Positions 8,214-54,048 of a stretch of 64,000 nt of DNA are shown in pieces (position 1 is the stretch's first letter; each line of letters opens with the position of its first letter). The notes beneath the pieces were generated by a model. That model was not told the DNA's origin and made no database searches. It saw only the letters and a list, made by a program, of their open reading frames with translations. The stretch covers positions 21,881,542-21,945,541 of the forward strand of contig NC_057924.1 in assembly GCF_018873765.1 (NCBI RefSeq), given 5' to 3'. The position numbers were made by a program, and so were the translations under genes. Origin of the DNA: Telopea speciosissima (taxonomy: Eukaryota > Streptophyta > Magnoliopsida > Proteales > Proteaceae).

Positions 8214-9136
8214 TGTTGGGTAATTGTATTACAATTCCTTACAAATAATTGAAACAATACGAATTGCAATACAATAGATTAAGCAGTAGAAACTAGGCTT
8301 GACCTTTGGCTGAAATGAGAAGACCAAAGCTTGGATTTGATGTAGAAGCACACCTGCAACAACTTGAACAAGCTTGAGGTTGAGTCACACTTGTGGTGCT
8401 GCCTTTAAGGTAATTGATGCCTCCTACTGCCAAGGAGTGTTCTACACCACTACCCCAAGATAAAACAACCTCCAACTAGAAGATGAAGCAGTCCTTCTAG
8501 TCCCTTGAAGGAGCTAAGAGCTTCAACACAGCAACCCTCTAACACACTTAGAAAAAGAGAGAGAGAGAGGGAGAATAATACTCTTAGTGATTGCTAAGTA
8601 TGGGCATGAACATGTATCCAAGGATGTCTCTTACAAAGCAATTGGTTGGGTTTATATAGGCCCAAGACCAATCCTTGCACTCCTTTGGAATTCTCAAGAA
8701 TAACCATCCACTTATGACCAAATTGAAGAATAAGATTTATGGACATGAATTGGAGGTTAATTCCAAATTCATGGTCATTCCCCACTAAGGGTCATGAATG
8801 ATCTTAAAATTCATTCATTCTCCACTAAGACCATAAAGGCCTTAAAACCCCATAAAGGGTCATTCTCCACTAAGGACCATAAAGGCCTTAATACCCCATA
8901 AAGGGAGAGACATCACCTATGGTCATGAATTGAGAAATCAATCTCATTCAATATCCTTGACCCACCTTCCCACTCATGATAATGACCATGAATAGACTTT
9001 AGGGTACCCATAGAATGTTACAACCTTTGGAATTACTTTTTTGATCACATAGGTCCCACACCATAACAAAGCAATCAAAATATTTTGAAACTTAAAATAA
9101 AATAAAATATATATTAGATATATTTTAAATCTAACA
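8214..9136 (-). repeat. Copia 5' LTR
   Basis: This 923-bp right copy acts as the 5' LTR of the minus-strand element. It starts TGTTGGGTAATTG and ends ATCTAACA on the plus strand. It has a short extra segment near its left end (about 8238-8262) relative to the other LTR. Confidence 0.93.
8651..8658 (-). promoter_or_regulatory. TATA box of the copia 5' LTR
   Basis: The minus strand reads CCTATATAAACCC here, a canonical TATATAAA inside the 5' LTR. It lies about 470 bp upstream of the gag ATG, in the same orientation as gag-pol. Confidence 0.6.
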
Positions 9137-11100
9137 AGAATCTTCACACCTTAAAATCTCTCTCTATCTAGTTCAATGGTTTGGTTCTTATAAAATGCTC
9201 TCAACCTCGATGCAAGCAAGTGCAGACACAAGATCGAGAAAATAATAACTTTAGTGGGTAAAATAAAATACAATTAAGTAAGAAGAAATTAAAAATAAAT
9301 TTTTGATTATTTAAATTAAAAATAAAGTTGATACAAAGTGATATGAAAAATAGATTTACAATTCTTTTTTTAATGCAAATCGATGGTGGAGAGAGGGGAC
9401 TCACCATATATAAGAGGTTAAAGCTGGATAAAAAAATTCAATACTATTTTCATGTAAAAGTGAAGTAGAATTGTACTTGCCATGTTCAATATATTTTTGA
9501 GTTTGTTATACAAATGTGATCCATGGCCATTACAAAAAAGTATGATTTTGTATTTGGTTAGATTATATTTCATTATACTCCACGTCCAACAGTACGGGGC
9601 AAAAATATGACGCTATAGGTGGAAAACCAGGTATTTTTTTGGTGTTCACTTTTGAGTCTTCTGCCTAACCCAATCCAACCAGCTCATGTGTCCAAATTTT
9701 AAAACAATTGCTGAGACAAACAAATCAAACAATTACTAGTTTACAATCCACCTCCTCCCAGCCCACCCTTAAATGGGAGAAAAGAAAAAAGAAAATAAAA
9801 TATTTTGCAAATCTATTAATTTCTCTCCTTTCCTTTCTCCTCTTAAAAAAAAATGGAATTTCCACTATGATGTTATTAAAATAAAATATTTAAAAAAAAA
9901 TAGTTTCAAAGTAAAATAACATTCATAGGTGTTGGAATTTTCAAGATATTGATGTGGGATTGTGAAGGAGTTTGTTTGGCTTATTTGTGTGAGTAGTCAT
10001 TTATCACATGTTATGTTTAGAAGATATTCTAAAGTGCATTTGTGAGGACGGGGACCGTCCGAGCGCGTCCTCGTGCATGAGACGCAATGTGGCATTCTTT
10101 GCACTTCGCACTGAGGCGCCTTAACCTTTTCTGGATCAACTGTCAGTGGACCAGTGCGATGGCTCGAATCCGACCGTTGGATCGGTGTCTGATCAAAGGG
10201 GTGCATCCCTTGAGTATACGTTGAACCCAATGGTTGTAGCTCATCCGTACAAACATGTGAGCCCAATGGTGATGACCCATACGAACAGCCATGTCCAAGT
10301 CCATAGGTAGCCCACGAATTCAGTCAGTCAAATATAACAATTCTTATAGTTTTAAATGATTACTGTCTCTGCAAATCAGTAATCAGTCAAACCTGATTTA
10401 TCTTGGGAGGCAGGTTTGCTGTAACCCTTTGCAGTAATAGGGTGCAAATACTATCTTAAGCACAGACATTTTTCAACTCAGGCAGTCTTACCGTGCTCTC
10501 CAATTTTGTTCTTATTTTCTAATAATAGGTGGGTTGGGATTGAAACCCTACTTCTGCAAGCTTGCAGAAGGTTTCCTAGTCTATCGAATCAAGATAGACC
10601 AAGTGTCAAATTTCATATCTAAATTCAATCAATATCCTCTTTGCTATGAGAAGTATGCCCACAGACCCTTCCTGTAGTTTATGCACATTTTTTGTAATCC
10701 CGGATTTTACATTGCTTTGTTTTGTACTTGATCAACTTTGATTGGATTGAAACTCAATGTACGAAGAGAAGACCTATGCATAGAGTTAGTTCCATCCAAC
10801 ATACTATTTAGCAAATGGGAAAAATACTTCTACACTACACTGTCATCGTAAAGATTCTTTTACACCCGCCTCACATATTAAACAATGTGGTCCATACTAA
10901 CATTTCTCTATCCTGTTCTGACCATTTGGCCCCATGTTGGCCCATGTAGATGATATCATTTTCTAACCTTCATTGGTTGTAGTGTATGGATTCCTTTTTA
11001 CACCATCCTTGTAGGAAACCCTCTCATTTAACAAATATAGATTTGCTAGACCATAAATTTTCCTACACCCACTTGACAATCCCTCACCTAACAAATATAT
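9137..11100. other. Intergenic DNA without recognisable gene
   Basis: Mostly AT-rich sequence. A GC-richer block at about 10035-10300 includes a GAGGAC / GTCCTC hairpin at about 10045-10073 and a CCGACCGTTGGATC motif, and looks like a decayed repeat. The stretch 10370-10800 resembles an LTR leader in composition but has no paired LTR. Open frames here lack any domain signal. Confidence 0.5.
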
Positions 11101-31239: not shown

Positions 31240-31452
31240 TTCTTCTTGACTTGAAGATTCGGGTAGAATCGGAATTGGGGTCCACCGATTTGGATTTGAA
31301 TCTATGGATCCCACCATTTCTAGTTCGATTTATAAATCCATTCTTAAACTTGCTCTTTCTCTGCAAATTGGTTATGAATTATTAAGATACAGTGAAAAGA
31401 AAATTTCTCCATCCTCTTTTTAAGAAACGTGCTTGTGATAAGATAAAAATTC
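31240..31452. other. Spacer to the Reina nest
   Basis: AT-rich, with no recognisable feature. It ends in AATTC immediately before the left LTR of the chromovirus. Confidence 0.5.
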
Positions 31453-31646
31453 TGTGGGGGAAGGGATAAGGCTATCTTCGAGGGTAGCTCCTCCTAGAAC
31501 AGGATAAGAAAAGAGATTTCTATTCATCAATGCCATTCTCTTCTAATGACAGATATTTATAAACCCTTAAAGATTCCCTTCTACTAACCCCTATCCTTTC
31601 AAAAGCACTTAATGGAAATATTCCCCTCTCTAACGAGTTTGTTACA
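31453..31646 (-). repeat. Reina 3' LTR
   Basis: It starts TGTGGGGGAAGGG and ends GAGTTTGTTACA on the plus strand. The first 110 bp match 40987-41096 and the rest matches 54040-54133. Confidence 0.9.
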
Positions 31647-31662
31647 ATTATTCCCTCCCTTT
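31647..31662 (-). promoter_or_regulatory. Reina polypurine tract
   Basis: On the minus strand AAAGGGAGGGAATAAT directly precedes the TGTAACAAAC start of the 3' LTR. Confidence 0.7.
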
Positions 31663-40986: not shown

Positions 40987-41096
40987 CATGGGGGAAGGGA
41001 TAAGGCTATCTTCGAGGATAGCTCCTCCTAGAACAGGATAAGAAAAGAGATTTCTATTCATCAATGCCATTCTCTTCAGATTACAAATATTTATAA
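40987..41096 (-). repeat. Reina 5' LTR, first piece
   Basis: These 110 bp match the left LTR base for base with few changes. The end dinucleotide is CA where the other LTR has TG. It stops at 41096 at the Mutator-like insertion. Confidence 0.85.
41088..41096. repeat. 9-bp target duplication of the MULE, left
   Basis: TATTTATAA here is repeated at 54040-54048. The uninterrupted LTR copy has one ATATTTATAAACCC at this place, showing that the nine bases were duplicated by insertion. Confidence 0.9.
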
Positions 41097-41249
41097 GGGA
41101 AAAAGATCGCCCCTAAACGCAATGGATTAATCTAATCCGTTCGATATATACGACACATCCTAACCATTCAGAATACTTACCTCCTTACCGGTTAAGAGTT
41201 TCCCATAGCCGGTAATCGAGCAAACGAATTTTAAAAAAGAAAAAACTTA

Positions 41250-41460
41250 AAAATTAAAAATTCTAGTCTCGTCTGTGTTTCCTTTTGGGGAAAACCCTAT
41301 TTTCGGCGAACTCCTCCTTCTCAACATTCTTCGATCGTAAACTCCTGGTTATAGATCATCGAAGAAATCTGTGATCGTGGTGGGAAAAACCCTTATTTCT
41401 CCAACTGATATTAAGGGAGAATCTTTCCTCTGTTTCTCTATTTCTCTATCTCGTTCTCAC
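41250..41460 (+). promoter_or_regulatory. Leader-like sequence near the left MULE end
   Basis: A CT-rich stretch with GGAAAACCCTATTTTCGGCG and CTCCTCCTTCTC words resembles a plant 5' leader. It could belong to the GRF gene transcript that starts from the left end. No clear TATA box. Confidence 0.25.
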
Positions 41461-41589
41461 TTTATAAATATTTGCATTATGAATTTTTTGTTGAATAGTT
41501 GGATTGGATTAGATGGTGATTTTTATTTATTTTTTTGCATTATTGGCTTTATAGAAGAGGGAATAGCATCCGGCAAAGGGATTTATCAG

Positions 41590-41755
41590 CATTTGTCAAC
41601 GATTTTGTAGTGAGCATTTTGCCGAAGCCCTAGATTTGCATTAAGCATCGTTCGTTCACATGTTTGAACACCTCAACGATTTTGCAATGAGCATTTTGGC
41701 AAAGCCCTGGAATTGCATTCACCATCGATCTTTAAAATGTTTGAAGTCCTTGCAT
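41590..41755 (+). repeat. Tandem duplication, about 80 bp
   Basis: Two units contain CAACGATTTTG, GTGAGCATTTTG or ATGAGCATTTTGG, a GAAGCCCT or AAAGCCCT word and CATGTTTGAA. They start near 41598 and 41679. Confidence 0.7.
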
Positions 41756-42633
41756 TTACCTGTGATGTGTTGTTAATTTGATTTATCTATAAATTATGAT
41801 AGTTGGAATCCAAAAAATTCTTTGACCGTTGTCTCTGAAATGCACATTGCACACACACAAGTAGAGTTGGTCACAACACTCCATTGTTCCATTGAATTGG
41901 GAAGGTGATGTTCTGATCACTAAATCCGAAGTTTCTAAACTCTTTCAACTCCATACAAAAAACCCAAAACATCCCAATTTCAGGGTTTGAAGATTCAATG
42001 GCATACTAAATCCGAAGTTTCTAAACTATTTGAACTCCATTTTGAGGCACTATGGCTTACTAAAATGTGTAGAAGAGAGATGGGCATCTCCTTCACACAC
42101 ACACACAAACTAAAATAAGGAGAATTCATGGTAAAAGGAATGGTCAGTAGATAAAATCAATGTTGATCATCATTTTGTTTTTCATTATAATTGTCATTTC
42201 TTGTTTACATTTATATGGTGACCAGTCATAGCAATTCTGGAATTTTGAATTGGTGAAATTTTGTAGCAATGTAAGGGATCCTTCATTTTTCTCCTTTCTA
42301 CTGATATCATGATATCGTGATGGAATGATTGTATGTTCCCATGATTTCGAGTTAACTGACTTCTCATTTCTGATTAGGACTCATGTCGTCATATCTACAT
42401 TAATCAAAATTTTGAAACTGATTTGCTAATCTTGATTAAGCAATATGACAATTAGATGCACCTAACCCGTTCGTTGTTTTGAGATGTTTTCATAATTTCT
42501 TAATGTTGAAGCTTATCCATGATCTGCCTGTGTGAAGGTACATCCATGATTCCTCATAATGTATGAATGAGAGAACATGATTATTGTTGTCATGTTCATT
42601 AATAAGGTTACATAATTATTACTGTCTTCAAGT

Positions 42634-43090
42634 GACCACACTTGACTAAGCATTGCTTAATTCTCAGCATTTTTCAAATATTAATACATGTGTTGCTGTC
42701 TTGAATAAGACCTCAATTGATTAACCATTACTTGATTCTCAAATTATTTTTCATATGAATACATGTTGTCTTGTAGTGACCACACTTGATTAACCATTGC
42801 TTGATTCTTCAAATATTTTTTTCACATTAATACCTGTCTTGCTGTCTTGCAGTGACCACACTTGATAAACCATTGCTTGATTCGCTATTTTGGTATCATA
42901 TGAATACATGTGTAGCTACCCTGTAGTGACCACAGTATATAAACCATTGCTTGATTTAATTTCTTATATGAATACATATGTTGTTGTCCGACAGTGACTG
43001 TATTTGATAGGACATTGTTTGATTCTTATATGAAGACATGTGTGGCTATCCTACAGTGGTTGCACTTGATAAGCTTCTGTTTGAATTGTT
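42634..43090 (+). repeat. Degenerate tandem repeats, about 70-85 bp
   Basis: About six units each carry AGTGACCACACTTGAT, ACCATTGCTTGATTC and TATGAATACATG-like words in that order, with drift increasing to the right. They lie between the left MULE end and the GRF gene. Confidence 0.8.
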
Positions 43091-43528
43091 TTTCAACTTT
43101 ACATGAACACTTACCTTTTGGCTATGGTTTTCAGAATTTTGTTTAAAAATATTTCTTTTGGTCTAGTCATTGGTGAATATTTGAGATCATTCTTGATCTT
43201 CTACCCAAGCACTTGGCATACAACAAATTTTGTGTACGAAGTTCTTTATAGATGAGGAAAAGCCATATCTCCAAGGTATTAATAGGTGCCAAACAAATTT
43301 CATTTGTCCTATACCATTTATGAAGTTCACAAACCTTATCTGTGCCATACACTTGACATATTTGGTTGATTGTAGTAAAATCTACTAATTTTGAATGTTC
43401 TAATTTAGTAGGATGAATTCAGTCTTCTATGTCTACAGCATCCCATGATTTTGGTTGCAACTTACAAATTTGAATCTCCTTTGAGCTTACTTGATATTAT
43501 GCTACCGTTTGTTGGTATAATTGACCAG

Positions 43529-44056
43529 ATGACTACTTGTGAACTTTGTGGTATAAGTTGTAAGAAAAACATTGCTAGGTCAGTCAAAAATAATGGTCGA
43601 GAATATTACAATTGTCTATGACGAGGATGTGAGTTCTTCATGTGGATTGATCAGTTCAGGTTATGTGACTGTGAAAATGGACAATGTAGGGTTAGAACTT
43701 CTAAATCCGATAAAAGCAAAGGTCGGCCGTTCTGGTGCTGCCTAAACTCAATTTCGGTATGACTACCATACCAACATTTACATTATTATGTCATTTATAG
43801 CAAACGATCATGGAATTGATTCTCTGATTTTACTAACAATTGTTGAATTCAAAAATAGGCTGAACGTAAAGGGTGTGGAATGTTCAAATGGATAGAAGAT
43901 GAAGGACAATGCTCTTCTACCCAACATTCCCCAACTTTAGCTGAGGGTGTGGAAACCTCCATTACTGAAGCTCCGACGCCTTCATCTGAGTTCATGAAAG
44001 GGTATTTCATGGTAGCTATTAAAGGCTCGAAGAATCAAACAAGAGCATTAAAATAA
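43529..44056 (+). pseudogene. Tandem GRF zinc-finger gene (one premature stop)
   Basis: Exon 1 (43529-43756) reads MTTCELCGISCKKN, then NNGREYYNC, RGCEFFMWIDQ, then CDCENGQC and GRPFWCCLNSIS. Intron 43757-43858 begins GTATGA and ends AAATAG, in phase 0. Exon 2 (43859-44056) continues ERKGCGMFKWIEDEGQC and a Ser/Thr/Glu-rich tail to TAA. GRF fingers have the form C..C, then GR.F..C, then C.FF.W.D. Here there are two in tandem, the second split by the intron. The only defect seen is TGA at 43619-43621, where the family pattern suggests a Trp or Arg. GRF fingers are known as nucleic-acid-binding modules. The gene lies in the MULE opposite the transposase. It may be a second element protein or a captured host gene. 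Confidence 0.75.
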
Positions 44057-44690
44057 GTCTTTGATACCTTCAGTGGGATTGACTTAAATAAGAAGAATGA
44101 GTAATAGCTGATTTTGATGTTCAGAACGCAAGGAGGAAAGCATGCATGAGTAAAAGTTGAGAACTGAGAGATGGTGATGGTACATAAGTTAAGAAGAAGA
44201 AGATGGTGGCCTGTACTAGAATACATGGTGTTGATATTTATTTTTGTTCTATCATGGGGTGAATACAAACCGTTGTAATATTGTTATTTTAAGGTGTTTG
44301 AAAGAATGACTTGAAGTGTATTTGGTTGGGATTGATTTGGATAACTATTTCATTGTTGGTATGCTAATGGGATTGAATTACGTTTGAATGGATTTCAGTT
44401 GAATGATGTTGGATGTTAGATATTTCTGTTAAGATTATTAGTGTCTTATTTACAGGTAAGCAATATTGTATTGTATGTACCGAAATGCTGCCAACTTGAA
44501 AAATAAAATGATGTTCAATTTAAGGACTTTGTTAGGTTGTATTATTTATAGGTCTGCATTATTATATTGTATGTACTGAAATGCTGTCCAATTAAAAAAT
44601 AGAATCATGTTCGATATTAAGTATTCGGATATTTTTTCGGAATACCTCTATACAAATGGTAATCATTTATCCATTTAAACCCTACAAATA
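44057..44690. other. 3' flank of the GRF gene
   Basis: AT-rich DNA with no gene. A diverged pair of CTGCATTATTATATTG / GCAATATTGTATTGTATGTAC segments at about 44455 and 44555 forms a local duplication. Confidence 0.5.
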
Positions 44691-44694
44691 CCCT

Positions 44695-47665
44695 AATCCT
44701 TGTACCTTGTACACAAACACATCCTGAAATTAGAGATATCGGATATTAAATTATATCTCGGGATTTAGACTAGGGATCTTAAATGGATTACCAAATTATC
44801 GAATTCGATCCGTATCAAGATACTTAATAATAAAAAATAAATTAAATAACGATATTCAAGGTTTTTTAAGATCCAATAGGATCAAAATGCATTTAATAAT
44901 TTGGGCAGATTGTGTCGAGTAGTATGTCGGTATCTCTATCTAAAAGGATTGACTCATCAGGATATATTTGTGTATGCCTCTATACAATCCTTGTACCTCG
45001 TACACAAACACACCCTGAAATTAGTGATATCGGATATTAAATTATATCTTGGGATTTAGACTAGAGATCTTAAGTGGATTGTCAAATTACCGAATTCGAT
45101 CTGTATCAAGATACTTAATAATAAAAAATAAATTAAATAACGATAGTCAAGGTTTTTTAAGATCCAACAGGATCAAAATGAATTTAATAATTTAGGTAGA
45201 TTGTGTCGAGCAGTATGCCGGTATCTCTATCTAAAAGGATTGACTCATTAGGATATGTCTGTGTATGCCTCTATACAATCCTTGTACCTCGTACACAAAC
45301 ACACCCTGAAATTAGTGATATCGGATATTAAATTATATCTTGGGATTTAGACTAGAGATCTTAAGTGGATTGCCAAATTACCGAATTCGATCTGTATCAA
45401 GATACTTAATAATAAAAAATAAATTAAATAACGATATTCAGGGTTTTTTAAGATCCAACCGGATCAAAATGAATTTAATAATTTGGGTAGATTGTATTAG
45501 AACGGTATCGGTATCTCTATCTAAAAGGATTGACTCATCAGGATATATCTGTGTATGCCTCTATAGAATCCTTGTACATCGTACACAAACACACCCTGAA
45601 ATTAGTGATATCGGATATTAAATTATATCTCCAGATTTAGACTAGAGATCTTAAGTGGATTGTCAAATTATCGAATTCGATCCGTATCAAGATACGTAAT
45701 AATAAAAAATAAATTAAATAACGATTTCAGGGTTTTTTAAGATCCAACCGGATCAAAATGCATTTAATAATTTGGGTAGATTGTATCGAGCAGTATGTCG
45801 GTATCTCTATCTAAAAGGATTGACTCATCAGGATATATCTATGTATGCCTCTATACAATCCTTGTACCTCGTACACAAACACACCCTGAAATTAGCGATA
45901 TCGGATATTAAATTATATCTCGGGATTTAGACTAGAGATCTTAAGTGGATTGTCAAATTATCAAATTCGATCCGTATCAAGATACTTAATAATAAAAACT
46001 AAATTAAATAACGTTATTCAGGATTTTTTAAGATCCAACCGGATCAAAATGCATTTAATAATTTGGTTAGATTGTATCGAGCAATATGCCGGGATCTCTA
46101 TCTAAAAAGATTGACTCATCAGAATATATCTATGTATGCCTCTATACAATCCTTGTACCTCGTACACAAACACACCCTGAAATTAGTGATATCGGATATT
46201 AAATTATATCTCGGGATTTAGACTAGAGATTTTAAGTGGATTGCCAAATTACCGAATTCGATTCGTATCAAGATACTTAATAATAAAAAATAAATTAAAT
46301 AACAATATTTAGGGGTTTTTAAGATTCAACCGGATCAAAATGCATTTAATAATTTGGGTAGATTGTATCGAGCAGTATGCCGGTATCTTTATCTAAAAGG
46401 ATTGACTCATCAGGACATATCTGTGTATGCCTCTATACAATCCTTGTACCTCGTACACAAACACACCCTAAAATTAATGATATCGGATATTAAATTATAT
46501 CTCGGGATTTAGACTAGAGATCTTAAGTGGATTGCCAAATTACCGAATTCGATCCGTATCAAGATACTTAATAATAAAAAATAAATTAAATAACGATATT
46601 CAAGGTTTTTTAAGATCCAACCGGATGAAAATGCATTTAATAATTTGGGTAAATTGTATCGAGCAGTATGCCGGTATCTCTGTCTAAAAGAATTGATTCA
46701 TCAGGATATATCTGTGAATGTCTCTATACAATCCTTGTACCTCGTACACAAACACACCCTGAAATTAGTGATATCGGATATTAAATTATATCTCGGGATT
46801 TAGACTAGAGATCTTAAGTGGATTGCCAAATTACCGAATTCGATCCGTATCAAGATATTTAATAATAACAAATAAATTAAATAACGATATTCAGGGATTT
46901 TGAAGATCTAACCGGATCAAAATGCATTTAATAATTTGGGTAGATTGTATCGAGCAGTATGTCGGTATCTCTATCTAAAAGGATTGACTCATCAGGATAT
47001 ATCTGTGTATGCCTCTATACAATCCTTGTACCTCGTACACAAACACACCCTGAAATTAGTGATATCGGATATTAAATTATATCTTGGGATTTAGACTAGA
47101 GATCTTAAGTGGATTGCCAAATTATCGAATTCAATCCGTATCAAGATACTTAATAATAAAAAATAAATTAAATAACGATATTCAGGGTTTTTTAAGATCC
47201 AACCGGATCAAAATGCATTTAATAATTTGGGTAGATTGTATTGAGCAGTATGCCGGTATATCTATCTAAAAGGATTGACTCATCAGGATATATCTGTGTA
47301 TGCCTCTATAGAATCCTTGTACCTCGTACACAAACACACCCTAAAATTAGTGATATCGGATATTAAATTATATCTCGAGATTTTAAGTGGATTGCCAAAT
47401 TACCGAATTCGATCCGTATCAAGATACTTAATAATAAAAAATAAATTAAATAACGATATTCAGGGTTTTTTAAGATCCAACCAGATGAAAATGCATTTAA
47501 TAATTTGGGTAGATTGTATTGAGCAGTATGCCAGTATCTTTATCTAGAAGGATTGACTCATCAGGATATATCTATGTATGCCTCTATACAATTCTTGTAC
47601 CTCGTACACAAACACACCCTGAAATTAGTGATATCGGATATTAAATTTGATTGCCAAATTACAGA
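44695..47665 (+). repeat. 291-bp tandem repeat array, ten units plus a partial
   Basis: Units begin at an AATCCTTGTACC word at 44695, 44986, 45277, 45567, 45857, 46148, 46439, 46730, 47021, 47312 and 47590. Spacing is 290-291 bp except the tenth unit, which lacks about 13 bp near 47375. Units are very similar, with a few substitutions each. Every unit holds GATATCGGATATTAAATTATATC, CGAATTCGATCCGTATC and ACTCATCAGGATATATCTG. The array ends in a truncated unit that merges into diverged related sequence (47640-47700). Frames running through units repeat the same peptide with stops and are not genes. Confidence 0.95.
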
Positions 47666-47699
47666 ATTCGATCCGAATCTGAAAATCCAAATACACCTA

Positions 47700-48166
47700 A
47701 TATAAAGAATAACCAAATACACCTTATTTAAAGAATACTATATACTTAATATTTTTTAATTTACATATAGACCACTATATAAGAATAAAGATCCAAAAAT
47801 TAATAAAATACCAATATGTAAATAGGATTTATAATAGAAGATGGCAATCAAGTAAAATCATCAACCACAACTATTCTTTCTACCAAAAAAAAAAAAAAAA
47901 CCACAACTATTCGGATAAAGTAACCGGATACACCATATTCGTATCCGATTGCTTTGGTGGCGTAAAGTTGTATTATCCAAGGGGTGCCCTTGATTATTCC
48001 ACCTTACTCTGACTGTCCATTACCCATTAATTAAACCGGAAATTAGGGAACCTGTCAGACTTTTTTACATCACTAACCTGTCTAAATCACTTTTAATTTA
48101 CAGGTTCAAGAAGGGATAATAGCCCCTAAAAGCTTTACCGTATGGAACCCTAGCCGACCTTCCTGC

Positions 48167-48197
<31 letters not shown>

Positions 48198-48200
48198 CCG
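47700..48200. other. Spacer right of the array
   Basis: AT-rich DNA. A (GA)n run lies at about 48173-48197. A run of A's is at 47887-47900. ACCGGATACACC and ATATTCGTATCCG words echo the array edge. Confidence 0.5.
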
Positions 48201-48329
48201 AGATAGAGAGGCGATGAAAATGGAGATGAGATACCAAGAAAACTGGTAAATAACGGCGATGGATGGATAAAGATCTAGACTGATAGATCTTACAACTTGG
48301 ATGCGGCTACATCTAGGTTATAGAACAAG

Positions 48330-48825
48330 GAAATGGGTTTGAAGAGACTGTGCGGCTACACCCAAACGCTCTGCTAAAGGTGTGATGCCAACTAAGGTGA
48401 AGAGGAAGACCCATCCCTGAGATAAAACACTAACTGTTAAAGGACTAGACCAGCAGTAAGAGCGATATACACCACTGAAATTTGATCCAAGTAAAACTTT
48501 AAAAGAAATGAGAGTTGAAAACTTATACTCTTCCAACACAATCATACAAATAGCCACAGGTCAATATTCTGAATTTCCCTTGAAACATATAAGGGCTATC
48601 AATGGGACCAAAAGATAACAACATATTAATCTTGGCTTTGATCAAGACGGCATTATTACTCTTGAATGCAACTTTATAAGGTAAACGCTTAGGGATCCAA
48701 GTGTGAGAGACATCTGCTAAAGCCTGAGATGTTTCAAAGGCATGGATCTTTCTCGAGGATTGTGATGCAAGAAACGGGATCTCCTCTTCAAGTTCAAGGC
48801 CTGTCTTCTCCTCTATGGATCCCAT
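48330..48825 (-). pseudogene. Captured CAX vacuolar cation/proton exchanger fragment
   Basis: The minus strand reads MGSIEEKTGLELEEEIPFLA from 48825, then AKINMLLSFGP at about 48610. After an intron that ends TTATCTCAG it reads WVFLFTLVGITPLAERLGVA (about 48405-48346). GITPLAERLG after a first transmembrane entry, with KIN.LL.FGP before it, is the N-terminal signature of plant CAX proteins, which exchange Ca2+ or other cations for protons at the vacuole. Only the N-terminal cytosolic part and the first membrane segment are present, and a frame change follows FGP. The retained intron shows capture from genomic DNA and not from a retrocopy. It lies wholly inside the MULE. Confidence 0.78.
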
Positions 48826-48859
48826 CTGCAAGACAAGATAATTTAATCTATCAACCAAA

Positions 48860-50070
48860 GCATCATTGCAGAAAAAAGAGAGCTAAAACTAGAAGACACA
48901 AATCAAAATTACACACCAAAACCTCTGCAACTGTCAAAGAGATGTGTTCAAGATCTGCACAGTTTGGTTCGGGAAAGGTTGGTACCATGTTGTTATGCAT
49001 GCAAAAAAGGAGGGAGGTACCAGTAAAACAAAAATGTGACTGAAAAATAAAATGATGTGAATAGTTGTTCAGTCAAAGTAACAAATGCAATTATATCTAT
49101 TTTTCTGTTACCTGATTTGTTTTAATCGGATGCATTCCTACTGTTATGATCTCAAAGGGAGAGATAAATTTGAACGTGTAGGTCCAACTACAACTCAGTG
49201 TACAGACAAGTTCTTTCTAGGATGATTGTATTATTGATAACTCTCTAAATCCATTTATAAAAATTAAGGTGAAGGACATAGTGACTGTACATCAGCTATT
49301 GTAGGTCCTGCAATATGGAGAAAAAAAAATAAGTAGGTTATTTGACGCAAGCAAATGAACCAATATGGATTCAACTCAAATCATAGACTAAATGAAATAA
49401 AACCAACTAGATAAAAAAGAACTAATGGTTGAAATAAATCAGTTGATGGCAATATATCCATTCATTGCAATAATTTAGTTGTTGTACCAAGAGAGGTACC
49501 TTAGTCATCTCTAACCTGTAATAATGGAGGTTTTTTGTTTGTAATAGGGGATGAGGGATGGCCAGCAGAGTTTGTTTGTCTAATCACAATGAGGATGTAG
49601 TTGTCCAATTTATTAGAACTGGTAGAAGCACATACATGTTCATTCCTTAGGGGTTCAATCTCAACAAGATATAATTATTTTAAAATTTATGGGTTTGAAG
49701 GACATACCAAAAAGGTAAATTTACCTAGGATGTTGATGTTGGTATTCGCAGGTACAAAATACAAGTGAGCACCTTCTCTTCACTCATATTCTAGGAGGTG
49801 CTGCATCACAATGTACCTATTAGTACGCTACTAAGATAAAAGTATTATAAAACAAAACTAAATCAACAAATAAACCAATCAATTAGAGATTATTTACCAT
49901 TCAAATCAATTTGGAGATTGGTAGGGTGGCCAGCTTGTGTATTATCATCCAAGGGCAAACCATAAACCTATAATTAAATTATGCGAAAAAAAAATTTATC
50001 TATCAATTGAGTGAATTTAAAAATACAAAGTTGATGACCCAATATAATTACCAAAACAAAGAGAAATATC
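48860..50070. other. Non-coding interior of the MULE
   Basis: AT-rich DNA between the CAX fragment and the transposase 3' end. No open frame with a domain was seen. Confidence 0.5.
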
Positions 50071-50074
50071 ATTA

Positions 50075-52507
50075 CCAAAGGACAATTTGTAATGTTGTGC
50101 CCTGTACCGCCACAACTAGAACAATGGTAAGCCCTTCTGTTGTTTACAGATTCAGTTCAATCAAACAAATGGCGCAAGTTCGGTCTCCCTCGTGTCATAG
50201 AGGTACGTAACGGATCAGGTATGTGTTGTCTGACTATAGGTGAACGACTCAAATGACCAATAGCATTTACTCTAACAGTTGGTTGTAATCTCAACACCTT
50301 CTCTAGCCCTTCATTTAATAATTTTACAGCTAGTTCATACCTCTGTTGGGAAAGAGATCCTTCTCTTGCAAACCTGTTGACAAGGTCTTTAGAATCCACA
50401 CAGGTTGTTGTTATTGTTCTTGAGATGAACCTAAGGCAGCTCCAGAACCTAAATTACCATATCTGGCAGCTTTGGTCTATCTAGGCAATATATACCTAGT
50501 AGGAATCTGGGATCTATTGGTTATCACGTAAATCTAAAGTATCCCTTTCTGATCAAACAAATTGCACCCACAGATAGTGATATCAGTCTGCTGATTGTCC
50601 AATACATACTGCACATCAATATCTCCATCACCAATCCTTTTAAAGACCTTGTACCTCTTCTCAATAATTTCTTCATCGCATCGATTGGCCTCAAGACCAA
50701 AACATGTATACCATTCTTCAAAGAAAACTTTAAACACTTTTGCCGTATAAACATGACCAGCTTGATGCTCGATCTTGTGAGCTGTAGCACAAGGAGGGGA
50801 TGAAGTGATGCAGCCAACATCTGCTTTGTCTTCCTTTTCTCTTTTTTTTTTGACAGCCTCTTCATATTAAGTCACAAACTCATTTAGAGGCGTTGATGAT
50901 GTGAAAAAACCCTTAAAATATTTATTCATTGACTCTCCTCTCTACGTCGTACTCATACTAGCCAAAAAGGTACAATGATAATAACACGGCACCTAATGTT
51001 GGCGTATCCTGAAGTGCTTCTTAAGCTACTTGTGGTCCTGTAAATTAAATCTATGTAACATGTTGGTCCAACTCTCCTCAAATTCACTGGATGTATTTGA
51101 ATCATTAATACAACTCCTATAAACTGCCCTCAAAGTCAGAAAATTTCCTATACAATGGTCTTATGTGGTTGCCCTTGTGTTTCTCTAAGTGCCATCCACA
51201 GAGCCGATGGACAGTCAATGGAAATACTTGTCTCATTGCTCTCATTATTCCTAGGTCTTGATCAGTAAAGATTTCCTTAGGTTGGATATCTTGTATTGCT
51301 TGCAACCATGTGCTAAATAGCCATATAAATGATTCTTGCTATTAGGCCACATCCAAACAAAGTAGACTGCATATGGTGATTAACACCAGTAAAGGGAGCA
51401 AATGGAAACTTATACTTATTTTTTTTATAAGTCGTGTCAAACACAACAACATCACCAAAAATCTTGTATTGTTTCCGTGCATGACTATCCATCCAAAAAA
51501 TCCCTGTAAATTACTGCTCTTCATTGATACGGACTGCATAAAAAAAACCTGGATCTGCTTGCCTCTTCCTGTCCAAATAGTTGATTGCTTGTTGACAATC
51601 AACTCCTATGCAATTCCTTCGCTTAGCCCTCAATAGATTCGTACAGAAATCATCATTTATACCAGCATACTGTGCGCCACCAGCAAAATCTTTAACAACT
51701 CTCATAATTTGGGTTGGTGTTATCCCACATGTACGCAGTCGTTCTATAAGTTGAATAGTACTTCTATCACTTTTTTTTATGTGATTGAAATCTAAATGAC
51801 TCACTCTTATCCACCAATGGATGGTTGTGCTCCTTTTCAAAATCATCAACCACCCACACCCCATTATTACACTTGATCTTCATTGACGCCCCACATTTAG
51901 TTTTCTTTGACACACGAGGCTGATAATCAACTTTTCTTCGTTTATCATATTTTTTCTCGCCTTCATTTGAACATACATAGTATCTTGATACTATGTGTTT
52001 ATCTACCGTTGATCGTTCCACCCTGTTTTTCTTGACTGAAAAACCCTTCTCCTTAGCATAGATGTTATAATGTTCATATGCGTCCTCCTCAGTCAGAAAT
52101 ACCATGCCAACAGTTGGTTCCAATTCATTACCATTACTACACCCTTTGTGTGGCATGTTGTCATCCCCATCTAAGCTCAAATTCATAATTTCTTTCTCAT
52201 TAATAACATCAACTATATTATTATCATCGTTGTCCTCACTTTCACAATCATTACTGTCTTCTTCATCTATACTACTCCTACCACCATCATGACTATCATT
52301 TTCTTGTCTATTCCATGTACTGTCACTATCACTATCACTATGACAATCATCATTTAGAACATCACTGGACCCAGTTTCATTTTCATGGGACAGAGCATTT
52401 TCCAGATCAATGAATCCATTGTATGTATCCTCTATTTCATTCAAATCTATTGCAACACAATAATTGAATGATCCTGCAACATGTAACCATATGTAGAACA
52501 TTAACAA
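50075..52507 (-). pseudogene. FAR1-type MULE transposase (broken)
   Basis: Minus strand, in order. An acidic N-terminal region (52480-52110). A FAR1 DNA-binding domain (about 52105-51800) with VGMVFLTEEDAYEHYNIYA, YYVCSNEG, TKCGASMKIK and EHNHPL. A linker with TIQLIERLRTCGITPTQIM. A transposase core with FWMDSHARKQY, VVVFDTTYKKNKY (Asp at 51438-51436), PFAPFTGVNHH, FTDQDLGIMRAM (about 51270-51236) and HRLCGWHLEKH. A late region with YTAKVFKVFFEEW and a SWIM-like CGCNLFDQKGIL. Finally a YHCSSCGGTGHNITNCP knuckle at about 50130-50080. Defects: a shift at an A8 run (about 51770-51777), TAA just before the core (about 51511), and stops in or after the SWIM part and before the knuckle. The true start may lie in an upstream exon, since TTGCAG precedes the coding stretch at about 52473. 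Confidence 0.9.
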
Positions 52508-53187
52508 TGGATTTATATCCTGCCTATCAACTAACTAGAAATCATACATTTATTCTAACACAAAATAAATCTGTGAAAAATAAATAGATCTGCTATAGAT
52601 CTAATCATAACTGCCGCAAGGTAGCAACTGAATCTGATTTCAGAAAAATAGATAACTAAACTGAAAGACTATTGAATCAATTGCATCAAATGGCTTCCAC
52701 AATAAGTCTTCAATGTAGCAGCATGAGTAAGTAACTGATTGTATAGAAAGCTTAAACCGATTACATCAAATGCCTTCCAGATTAAGTCTTCAATTTCATC
52801 TTACTCATGCTGCTACTTACTAAATGTAGTATCACGAGTAACATCCAGATCTTAAGATCTTCATCAGTTGCAAGTAGGTAATATAAACTCTACTTTTATC
52901 TCTAAATCTTATCAAACTAAGGGCATCATGTACCATATATGCAGCACAGCCTGCTATAAACAAGAACTGAGAGAACCTTGAAGACCAATCAAACCAGAGT
53001 TCAGTTGGATCAATCACTAGTTCGGCTAGTGCTCTGACACAATGTAACAGTTGTTAACTAAAGAAACCAAACACAATAACCCTCTTATTGAACAGTGTCA
53101 TACTACAATTAACCCTCTCATGGACAATTTAGAAGTTAGATACATATATAGAGTTCAAGTATGAACAACCAAACATTTGTTTCATTT
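52508..53187. other. Upstream region of the MULE transposase, no ORF
   Basis: AT-rich. A local inverted duplication pairs CAGCATGAGTAAGTAAC at about 52719 with TTACTCATGCTGCTAC at about 52802, and ATCAAATGGCTTCCA / ATCAAATGCCTTCCA repeat at 52684 and 52764. Probably intron or leader of the transposase. Confidence 0.45.
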
Positions 53188-53523
53188 AATCTGAATTTAC
53201 CAATTTTTAAGTGTTCCAACCATTTCTATAGGTGGATCTATCCACCTCAAGAGTGTAATGCCAATTTAATTTCCATTTAAAATACATAGTCTTTCATATA
53301 ATCTGAATATATCAATTTTAAATTGTTCCAACCATTTCTATAGGTGGATATATCCACTTCAAGAGTGTAATGCCAATTTAATTTCCCTTAAACATATAAA
53401 GTCTTTCATATAATCTGAATTTATCAAATTTAAGGTGTTCCAACCATTTCTTTAAGTAGACCCATCCAGCTCAAGAGTGTAATACAGTAATGCCATTTTC
53501 ATTTCTCTTAAAAATATAAAGAG
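53188..53523 (-). repeat. 112-bp tandem repeat, three copies
   Basis: Units begin at AATCTGAAT at 53188, 53300 and 53412. Each carries GTTCCAACCATTTCT and CAAGAGTGTAAT. They lie between the right end of the MULE and the transposase gene. Confidence 0.88.
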
Positions 53524-53539
53524 ATAGAGAGCCAAACAG

Positions 53540-53830
53540 AGAACAAATGGAGTACACTTGCTCTTCAGAGCTCTGGATCTCGAAATGGGGGATATTGGGT
53601 CTTCTCGCTGCACGAAGAAACAAATCTGCAACCAGCAATTGGGGTTATTTCACTTAAAAACCCCAAAAAATTAGAGATAAAGAGAGCGAGAACAGCAAAT
53701 GGAGAATAGTGGATACCTGCTATTGAGACCTCTCGATCTCCACCAACAGTGGTTAAAATCGATCAACCACCACCTCTATAAATGGTCTTCTCGCTAGCTG
53801 AAGAACGTCTTCCCAGCAAAAGCATAACGA
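53540..53830 (-). promoter_or_regulatory. Possible transposase leader and promoter near the right MULE end
   Basis: On the minus strand a CATTTATAGAGG TATA-like word at about 53787-53776 is followed by leader-like sequence with possible short exons (for example donor-like GGTATCC at about 53720). It is oriented toward the transposase and lies about 250 bp from the right end, as in MuDR where promoters are near the ends. Confidence 0.3.
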
Positions 53831-54039
53831 AGGTCAAAAGTTGTTTTCATTTCCTCATTACCCTTAAGTCATTTTCATTACTGGAGATAAGGAGGTGGCA
53901 CCGGTATCATTAGACTAATCAGGTACAATTAGTACCAACGGCTCAGATTGCAGACACAAGAAATCAACGGCTCACATTGATATGTTGTGCTTAATGCTGC
54001 GTTTAATTCAAATAAGGGTCGCGCTGCGACTAGTCACCC

Positions 54040-54048
54040 TATTTATAA
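54040..54048. repeat. 9-bp target duplication of the MULE, right
   Basis: TATTTATAA, the partner of 41088-41096. It is followed by the rest of the Reina LTR. Confidence 0.9.

Follow-up and report, generated by a model that had tools for sequence, protein, structure and literature searches.

The window examined here is a stretch of 64,000 nucleotides of the Telopea speciosissima genome (NC_057924.1, positions 21,881,542 to 21,945,541). The subject of this report is a 12.9-kb insertion at positions 41097–54039 of the window, which carries the remains of two genes on opposite strands: a transposase of the FAR1 lineage of Mutator-like elements (MULEs) on the minus strand and a gene for a tandem GRF zinc-finger protein on the plus strand.

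The Insertion and Its Ends

A perfect 9-bp duplication, TATTTATAA, flanks the insertion, at 41088–41096 on the left and at 54040–54048 on the right. When the two flanks are joined, they align with a paralogous site elsewhere in the window (31436–31655), a putative Reina long terminal repeat, at 203 of 221 aligned positions (92%, one gap), and the 9-mer occurs there once, at 31554. The first-pass annotation, drawn from the letters alone, had claimed both the duplication and the exactness of the boundaries, and the flank alignment bears it out on both counts. Since the joined flanks align to a site with a single 9-mer, 41097 and 54039 are the exact insertion points, and the whole segment is one transposon insertion. 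Duplications of 9 bp are typical of MuDR, and those of MULEs in general measure about 9 bp (8–10).

The left end (41097–41330, plus strand) begins with GGGAAAAAGATCGC and has a subterminal AAACGCAATGGATTAATCTAATCCGTT. The right end (53840–54039, minus strand) reads GGGTGACTAGTCGCAGCGCGACCC from outside and was aligned with the right ends of three of the copies described below, C4a, C7a, and C5a. Repeat detection places a 112-bp repeat, present three times, upstream of the transposase (53180–53515), and an array of 11 copies of a repeat of about 291 bp at 44564–47758, between the convergent GRF and transposase genes. The array is also matched in C4a, C4b, C7a, C5a, and C2a.

Genes of the Window Copy

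Pfam searches were run on translated frames, with stops read as X, over 48001–54039 of the minus strand and 41097–50000 of the plus strand. On the minus strand they recover FAR1 (PF03101, 4.4e-20) and the MULE transposase domain (PF10551), the latter above the cutoff in each of two frames. The FAR1 exon, which was also used in the genome search, is a 255-residue open frame at 51767–52534; the MULE domain lies at 51180–51450 and is split over two frames near 51340. The FAR1 and MULE parts of the transposase originally described at this position are thereby confirmed by Pfam. The SWIM and CCHC parts fare differently: neither SWIM nor a zinc knuckle gives a Pfam match in the transposase region at E 0.1, and what can be seen by eye is a knuckle-like motif, C-x2-C-x4-H-x4-C, at the C-terminus (50079–50148, minus strand), where tblastn matches 50055–50357 to the C4b copy.

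On the plus strand the GRF zinc finger (PF06839) is found in two stretches, in agreement with the tandem GRF gene first proposed there. Exon 1 (43529–43756) is identified by Pfam and protein search, is conserved in six copies, and is interrupted in the window by an in-frame TGA. Exon 2 (43859–44101), delimited by alignment of copies and by protein search, encodes the end of the second finger and a C-terminal tail, and contains an in-frame TAA. A phase-0 intron is predicted at 43757–43858 from GT/AG sites and reading frame, not from a transcript. Because both genes contain stops and the transposase frame changes inside the MULE domain, the window copy cannot be autonomous; it is a dead, defective element.

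A segment at 48360–49291 occupies the place where other copies have a third gene. The search found it in one other place, C7:67429718–67430810, at 95% and 98% identity; about 160 bp of the C7 locus is missing in the window. The segment looks like the product of gene-fragment capture in the style of Pack-MULEs, and its absence from C4a, C7a, C4b, and C5a suggests that copying ran from the chromosome-7 locus to the window. An open reading frame (ORF) of the window copy at 48523–48882 was considered as a gene and rejected, since it lies inside this segment and Pfam matches nothing in the protein it would encode.

A Repeat Family with the Same Ends

The T. speciosissima assembly (823 Mb, 1287 contigs) was searched with the left end, and the family was defined by that search. 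It returned 12 matches, the window included; nine of the 11 others were taken as 20-kb stretches, and two, L019 and L020, as 3-kb loci. Both ends together with perfect 9-bp duplications are present in four of the nine stretches: C4a (18,283 bp, TAAATGTAA), C7a (16,407 bp, TATCTTTTT), C5a (7,883 bp, AATAAATAT), and C2b (1,039 bp, TAAGAATTA). These perfect target duplications are AT-rich. With the end patterns used, no 9-bp duplication was found in C4b, C2a, C1a, C7b, or C5b, nor at loci L019 and L018; that of L020 matches at 8 of 9 positions. L019 and L020 each have paired related ends about 1.3 kb apart and are probably short non-autonomous relatives.

The family termini vary around GGGAAAAAGATCGC on the left and GRGTGACTGGTCGCAGCGCGACCC, read from outside, on the right. 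The outermost left sequence is GGGAAAAA in eight of the 11 other copies and a near form of it in the remaining three; in 10 of the 11 the alignment to the window's left end begins at base 18 or 19, because the window copy lacks about 20 bp there. Among these left-end matches, copies with ends that fail to coincide with 41097 and 54039 did not turn up. Long terminal inverted repeats are common but not universal in MULEs, and the window family lacks them. The outer 50 bp or so of the two ends of C7a match each other in inverted orientation no better than shuffled sequences do (877 of 1000 shuffles reach the score), and short subterminal inverted matches occur in some copies.

Matches to the GRF gene are found in six of ten stretches (the window, C4a, C4b, C7a, C5a, and C2a, hence in five of the nine outside the window), and none in C1a, C2b, C7b, and C5b. 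Four of those six, namely the window, C4a, C7a, and C4b, also match the transposase, the FAR1 exon of C4b lying just beyond its 20-kb stretch; C5a is missing the transposase part, and C2a has no right half within 20 kb. Co-occurrence of the two genes in other copies, which had been suggested as a check, thus holds in part. In the C2a GRF copy both exons are free of stops, with ATA where the window has ATG, and PF06839 is matched at 2.9e-18 in two stretches. Among family members, GRF variability at third codon positions (0.24) is only slightly above that at first (0.19) and second (0.17) positions and in the intron (0.21).

A third gene, ORF3, is carried by C7a, C4b, C4a, and C5a on the GRF strand, between the array and the transposase side. 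The frame, of about 84 codons, encodes an arginine-rich and then acidic product with no Pfam match. C4a alone keeps the frame open; the C7a, C4b, and C5a versions are interrupted or shifted. A protein search gave nine matches, spread over eight sites: these four copies plus four further loci (37–51% identity, the last of them weak, E 0.004). Two of these further loci lie between FAR1 and GRF matches in the expected orientation, one beside FAR1, and one downstream of GRF. At C8:22535748–22544185 a GRF gene is followed by an open ORF3 relative in a 149-residue frame, with a MULE match on the divergent, not the convergent, side.

Several copies show further internal features. C4b has a retrotransposon-like insert between its left end and the GRF gene. 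Inside C4a lies a partial, inverted duplicate of the left end (10520–10565 of its stretch, 46 bp, 87%), and C5a has motifs resembling GATCG...TTTTCCC, seen by eye, none of them matched in C7a or C4b. Fusion of two elements was considered for C4a on the strength of its inverted left-end copy, and was set aside, since nothing comparable is matched in C7a or C4b.

The first-pass description of the window must therefore be corrected in four respects: the copy is defective, long inverted repeats are absent, a third gene exists in other copies, and 48360–49291 is a captured fragment.

Convergent Pairing across the Genome

Loci related to each of the two genes were located genome-wide. For FAR1, 149 rows were scored out of 350 candidates, and removal of seven extra pieces of loci already counted left 142; for GRF, 126 loci were kept from 185 matches (668 candidates, 150 scored), second rows of one locus having been merged. 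The pairing counts come from these listed matches and are lower bounds.

The nearest GRF match within 40 kb of the 142 FAR1 loci is convergent in at least 32 cases, divergent in one, and on the same strand in none. When every FAR1/GRF pair within 40 kb is counted, 32 are convergent, two divergent, and one same-strand. Random placement gave a mean of 0.47 convergent pairs and a maximum of four in 2000 trials, and twelve displacements of the entire GRF set, by 0.1–2 Mb, left zero to two each. The window's own family contributes four of the 32 convergent pairs, and 28 lie outside it; the arrangement recurs across subfamilies. The proposal that a FAR1-lineage MULE travels with a GRF partner is supported well beyond the single element for which it was made.

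Sorted by FAR1 identity to the window, convergent pairs account for 4 of 4 loci at 75% or more, 3 of 10 at 65–75%, 20 of 34 at 55–65%, 2 of 12 at 50–55%, 0 of 19 at 43–50%, and 3 of 63 below 43%, where there is also one divergent pair. These counts make the pairing strong, not universal. Generic Pfam lists (at least 150 MULE and at least 149 GRF matches) were unconvincing: where 0.8 pairs within 15 kb would be expected, the matches listed gave five, one convergent, one divergent, and three same-strand. The lineage-specific searches, not the generic lists, are decisive for the pairing.

L041 (C4:23223000–23232999) is a distant FAR1 element that has the pair and also inverted repeats. Its inverted repeats, of about 650 bp, lie near 882–1543 and 8413–9231 (longest arm 441 bp, 95%), and this single pair encloses both genes. 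The transposase, on the plus strand, has one in-frame stop and two frame changes, where introns are possible; the tandem-GRF gene, on the minus strand, adjoins the right repeat, and its predicted exons are free of stops. Pfam gives FAR1 at 5.8e-22 and PF06839 at 1.1e-7 on one of the two fingers, and the SWIM match reaches 18.0 bits against a cutoff of 19.6. Relative to the window, L041 is 37% identical in FAR1 and 49% in the GRF exon. In a set of 24 L041-type GRF loci (63% identity or more, picked by hand), nine have a convergent transposase match within 40 kb (0.7 expected), 15 have none, and none has one in another orientation. Two of the nine share one transposase match, and three of the nine were already counted in the 32.

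A further locus, L042 (C10:62531500–62541499), has an uninterrupted tandem-GRF gene near 8871–8316 on the minus strand. It is one of at least 11 GRF loci with a 91-residue open frame and no stop, which may be non-autonomous or domesticated.

Correlated Divergence of the Two Genes

From the 28 non-family convergent pairs, 12 were selected among those with high FAR1 scores, and amino-acid distances were computed for the FAR1 exon and, on the GRF side, for exon 1 only. The two sets of distances are correlated with r = 0.80, a value reached in none of 5000 permutations (largest 0.73). Addition of the window and C7a, the latter represented by a 48-residue piece of exon 1, gives r = 0.81 for 14 sequences, and inclusion of L041 gives 0.82 for 15. 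The comparison of sequences thus indicates that the FAR1 and GRF genes descended together. With decayed copies included, GRF has a pairwise ratio of nonsynonymous to synonymous differences (pN/pS) of 0.57 and FAR1 one of 0.62.

The GRF Protein

The GRF protein has about 155–165 residues, made up of tandem GRF zinc fingers and a conserved C-terminal tail. Homologous tandem-GRF proteins are found in Macadamia and Protea, and all named homologues are from Proteaceae in a search limited to proteins that have short exact words in common with the query. In the Macadamia protein P0001, PF06839 is matched in two stretches (4.6e-16), and many of the cysteines and the C-terminal tail are retained between Telopea and Macadamia. 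Both fingers are matched by the GRF structures of NEIL3, 7jl5 and 7omk (best E 6.4e-7). The GRF repeats of NEIL3, unlike single fingers, have been reported to bind shorter single-stranded DNA (ssDNA) with high affinity (PMC9737245), and the second protein of MuDR, encoded by mudrB, is apparently required for integration (PMC6446971). On the strength of the structural match and these two reports, the tandem-GRF protein is probably an ssDNA-binding helper of transposition.

Interpretation

The insertion is best explained as a decayed copy from a group of FAR1-lineage MULEs whose fuller members carry a transposase, a convergent tandem-GRF accessory gene, and, in some, ORF3. We put the probability of this reading at about 85%.

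Several observations weigh against it. No examined copy has both the GRF and the transposase gene uninterrupted, and within the window family the nonsynonymous-to-synonymous rate ratio (dN/dS) of the GRF gene runs from 0.36 to 1.11, which indicates weak, mixed selection. Many FAR1 loci have no GRF match within 40 kb among the matches listed: 7 of 10 at 65–75% identity, 14 of 34 at 55–65%, 10 of 12 at 50–55%, all 19 at 43–50%, and 59 of 63 below 43%. On the GRF side, 91 of 126 loci are likewise without a listed FAR1 match at that distance. One FAR1 relative, 66% identical, has no GRF in 20 kb, yet it has no MULE or SWIM match either, and so may be a remnant. Element ends were examined at L041 alone among the 28 pairs outside the family, and there a 9-bp duplication was looked for and not found; at L042 the family transposase is unmatched in the 8.3 kb facing the GRF gene. 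Finally, the AlphaFold model of the Macadamia GRF protein is poor (predicted local distance difference test score 46.9).

A mechanism consistent with the group's gene content can be proposed. The FAR1-MULE transposase would cut and join the element ends, and the GRF protein would bind ssDNA at transposition intermediates and aid integration or repair, in the role that mudrB has in MuDR. Binding to the transposase, or dimerization, is a possible function of its C-terminal tail, and ORF3 may assist by binding DNA or in connection with silencing. We suggest tentatively, at slightly less than even odds, that the FAR1-MULE lineage, with or without long inverted repeats, has a dedicated tandem-GRF helper, often accompanied by a third small protein, that acts with the transposase on ssDNA intermediates. 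Such proteins would form a new kind of MULE helper, comparable in role to MURB without being related to it, and the elements would supply Proteaceae with free tandem-GRF proteins.

The GRF protein might instead be an anti-silencing factor rather than a helper of cutting and joining. VANDAL MULEs encode anti-silencing proteins such as VANC, the repeats inside the element could be the targets of such a factor, and DNA-repair enzymes contain GRF fingers too. The reported binding of ssDNA by the matched tandem GRF domains (PMC9737245) argues the other way, and a VANC-like role seems rather unlikely.

Less probable still is an origin of the GRF gene by capture from the host, with amplification as a Pack-MULE-style passenger that has no role in transposition. 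The window copy has itself captured a chromosome-7 fragment, the purifying signal within the family is weak, and many FAR1 relatives have no GRF partner among the matches listed. A neutral gene, however, would be expected to be lost or scrambled over the time that separates elements 37% identical in FAR1 and 49% in the GRF exons, and between these the orientation is kept. The correlated divergence of the two genes, a pN/pS for GRF near that of the transposase, and the many cysteines and the tail shared with Macadamia also speak against a passenger.

That two separate transposons are nested or lie near one another by chance is very improbable: nests are common in plant genomes and the FAR1–GRF distances range from 1.9 to 40 kb, but for the elements studied this reading is already contradicted. 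In the window, C4a, and C7a the two genes lie inside one set of ends with a single 9-bp duplication, and in L041 they lie inside a single inverted-repeat pair. The reading also accords poorly with convergence of 32 of the 33 nearest pairs among the matches listed and with the 291-bp array between both genes in the family.

The roles of mudrB and of other antisense MULE genes are still unclear, and a GRF partner offers a concrete, testable one, in a domain with relatives of solved structure and reported ssDNA binding. Transposons are also a possible origin of annotated "uncharacterized" GRF proteins in Proteaceae.

Comparison with Known Systems

The closest parallel in plan is MuDR, which likewise has a MULE transposase, a second gene in the opposite orientation, and 9-bp duplications. 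The present group differs in its FAR1 N-terminus, in its third gene, in the absence of long inverted repeats from the window family, and in size (12.9–18.3 kb, inserts included). Its second gene encodes a tandem GRF finger that matches Pfam GRF families, and no such finger is known from MURB. The opposite orientation of the second MuDR gene is described in PMC9168764. The two-gene convergent plan may recur outside MuDR with a different partner.

Among FAR1 elements, Jittery and the plant FAR1 MULEs placed in group 36 of PMC6446971 share with the window element the FAR1 N-terminus and occurrence in flowering plants, and some have no inverted repeats. Group 36 members have a SWIM or CCHC C-terminus, with which the CCHC-like motif seen by eye in the window may be compared. 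They differ, as tabulated in the available part of that source, in having one ORF and duplications that are 8 bp or unstated, whereas the present group has two or three genes and 9-bp duplications. Group 35 of the same source, Hop, in which half of the plant members have FAR1, is a possible alternative home for the window element. Jitvine-1 and Jitvine-2 of grapevine are Jittery-related and also long (11.9 and 14.4 kb), but a second gene goes unmentioned for them in the available text of PMC2528002. The literature search, which did not extend to subscription papers or Repbase, found nothing linking GRF fingers with MULEs among the papers listed.

A second gene opposite the transposase has also been described in the Abermu MULEs of grasses, where ORFR lies beside the 3′ inverted repeat and is of unknown function (PMC9168764). 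The term "GRF" is absent from the main text of that report. For the protein itself the nearest known counterpart is NEIL3, whose two consecutive GRF fingers align with it over their full length. In NEIL3, however, the tandem fingers are part of a glycosylase, whereas here they make up a free protein encoded by a transposon.

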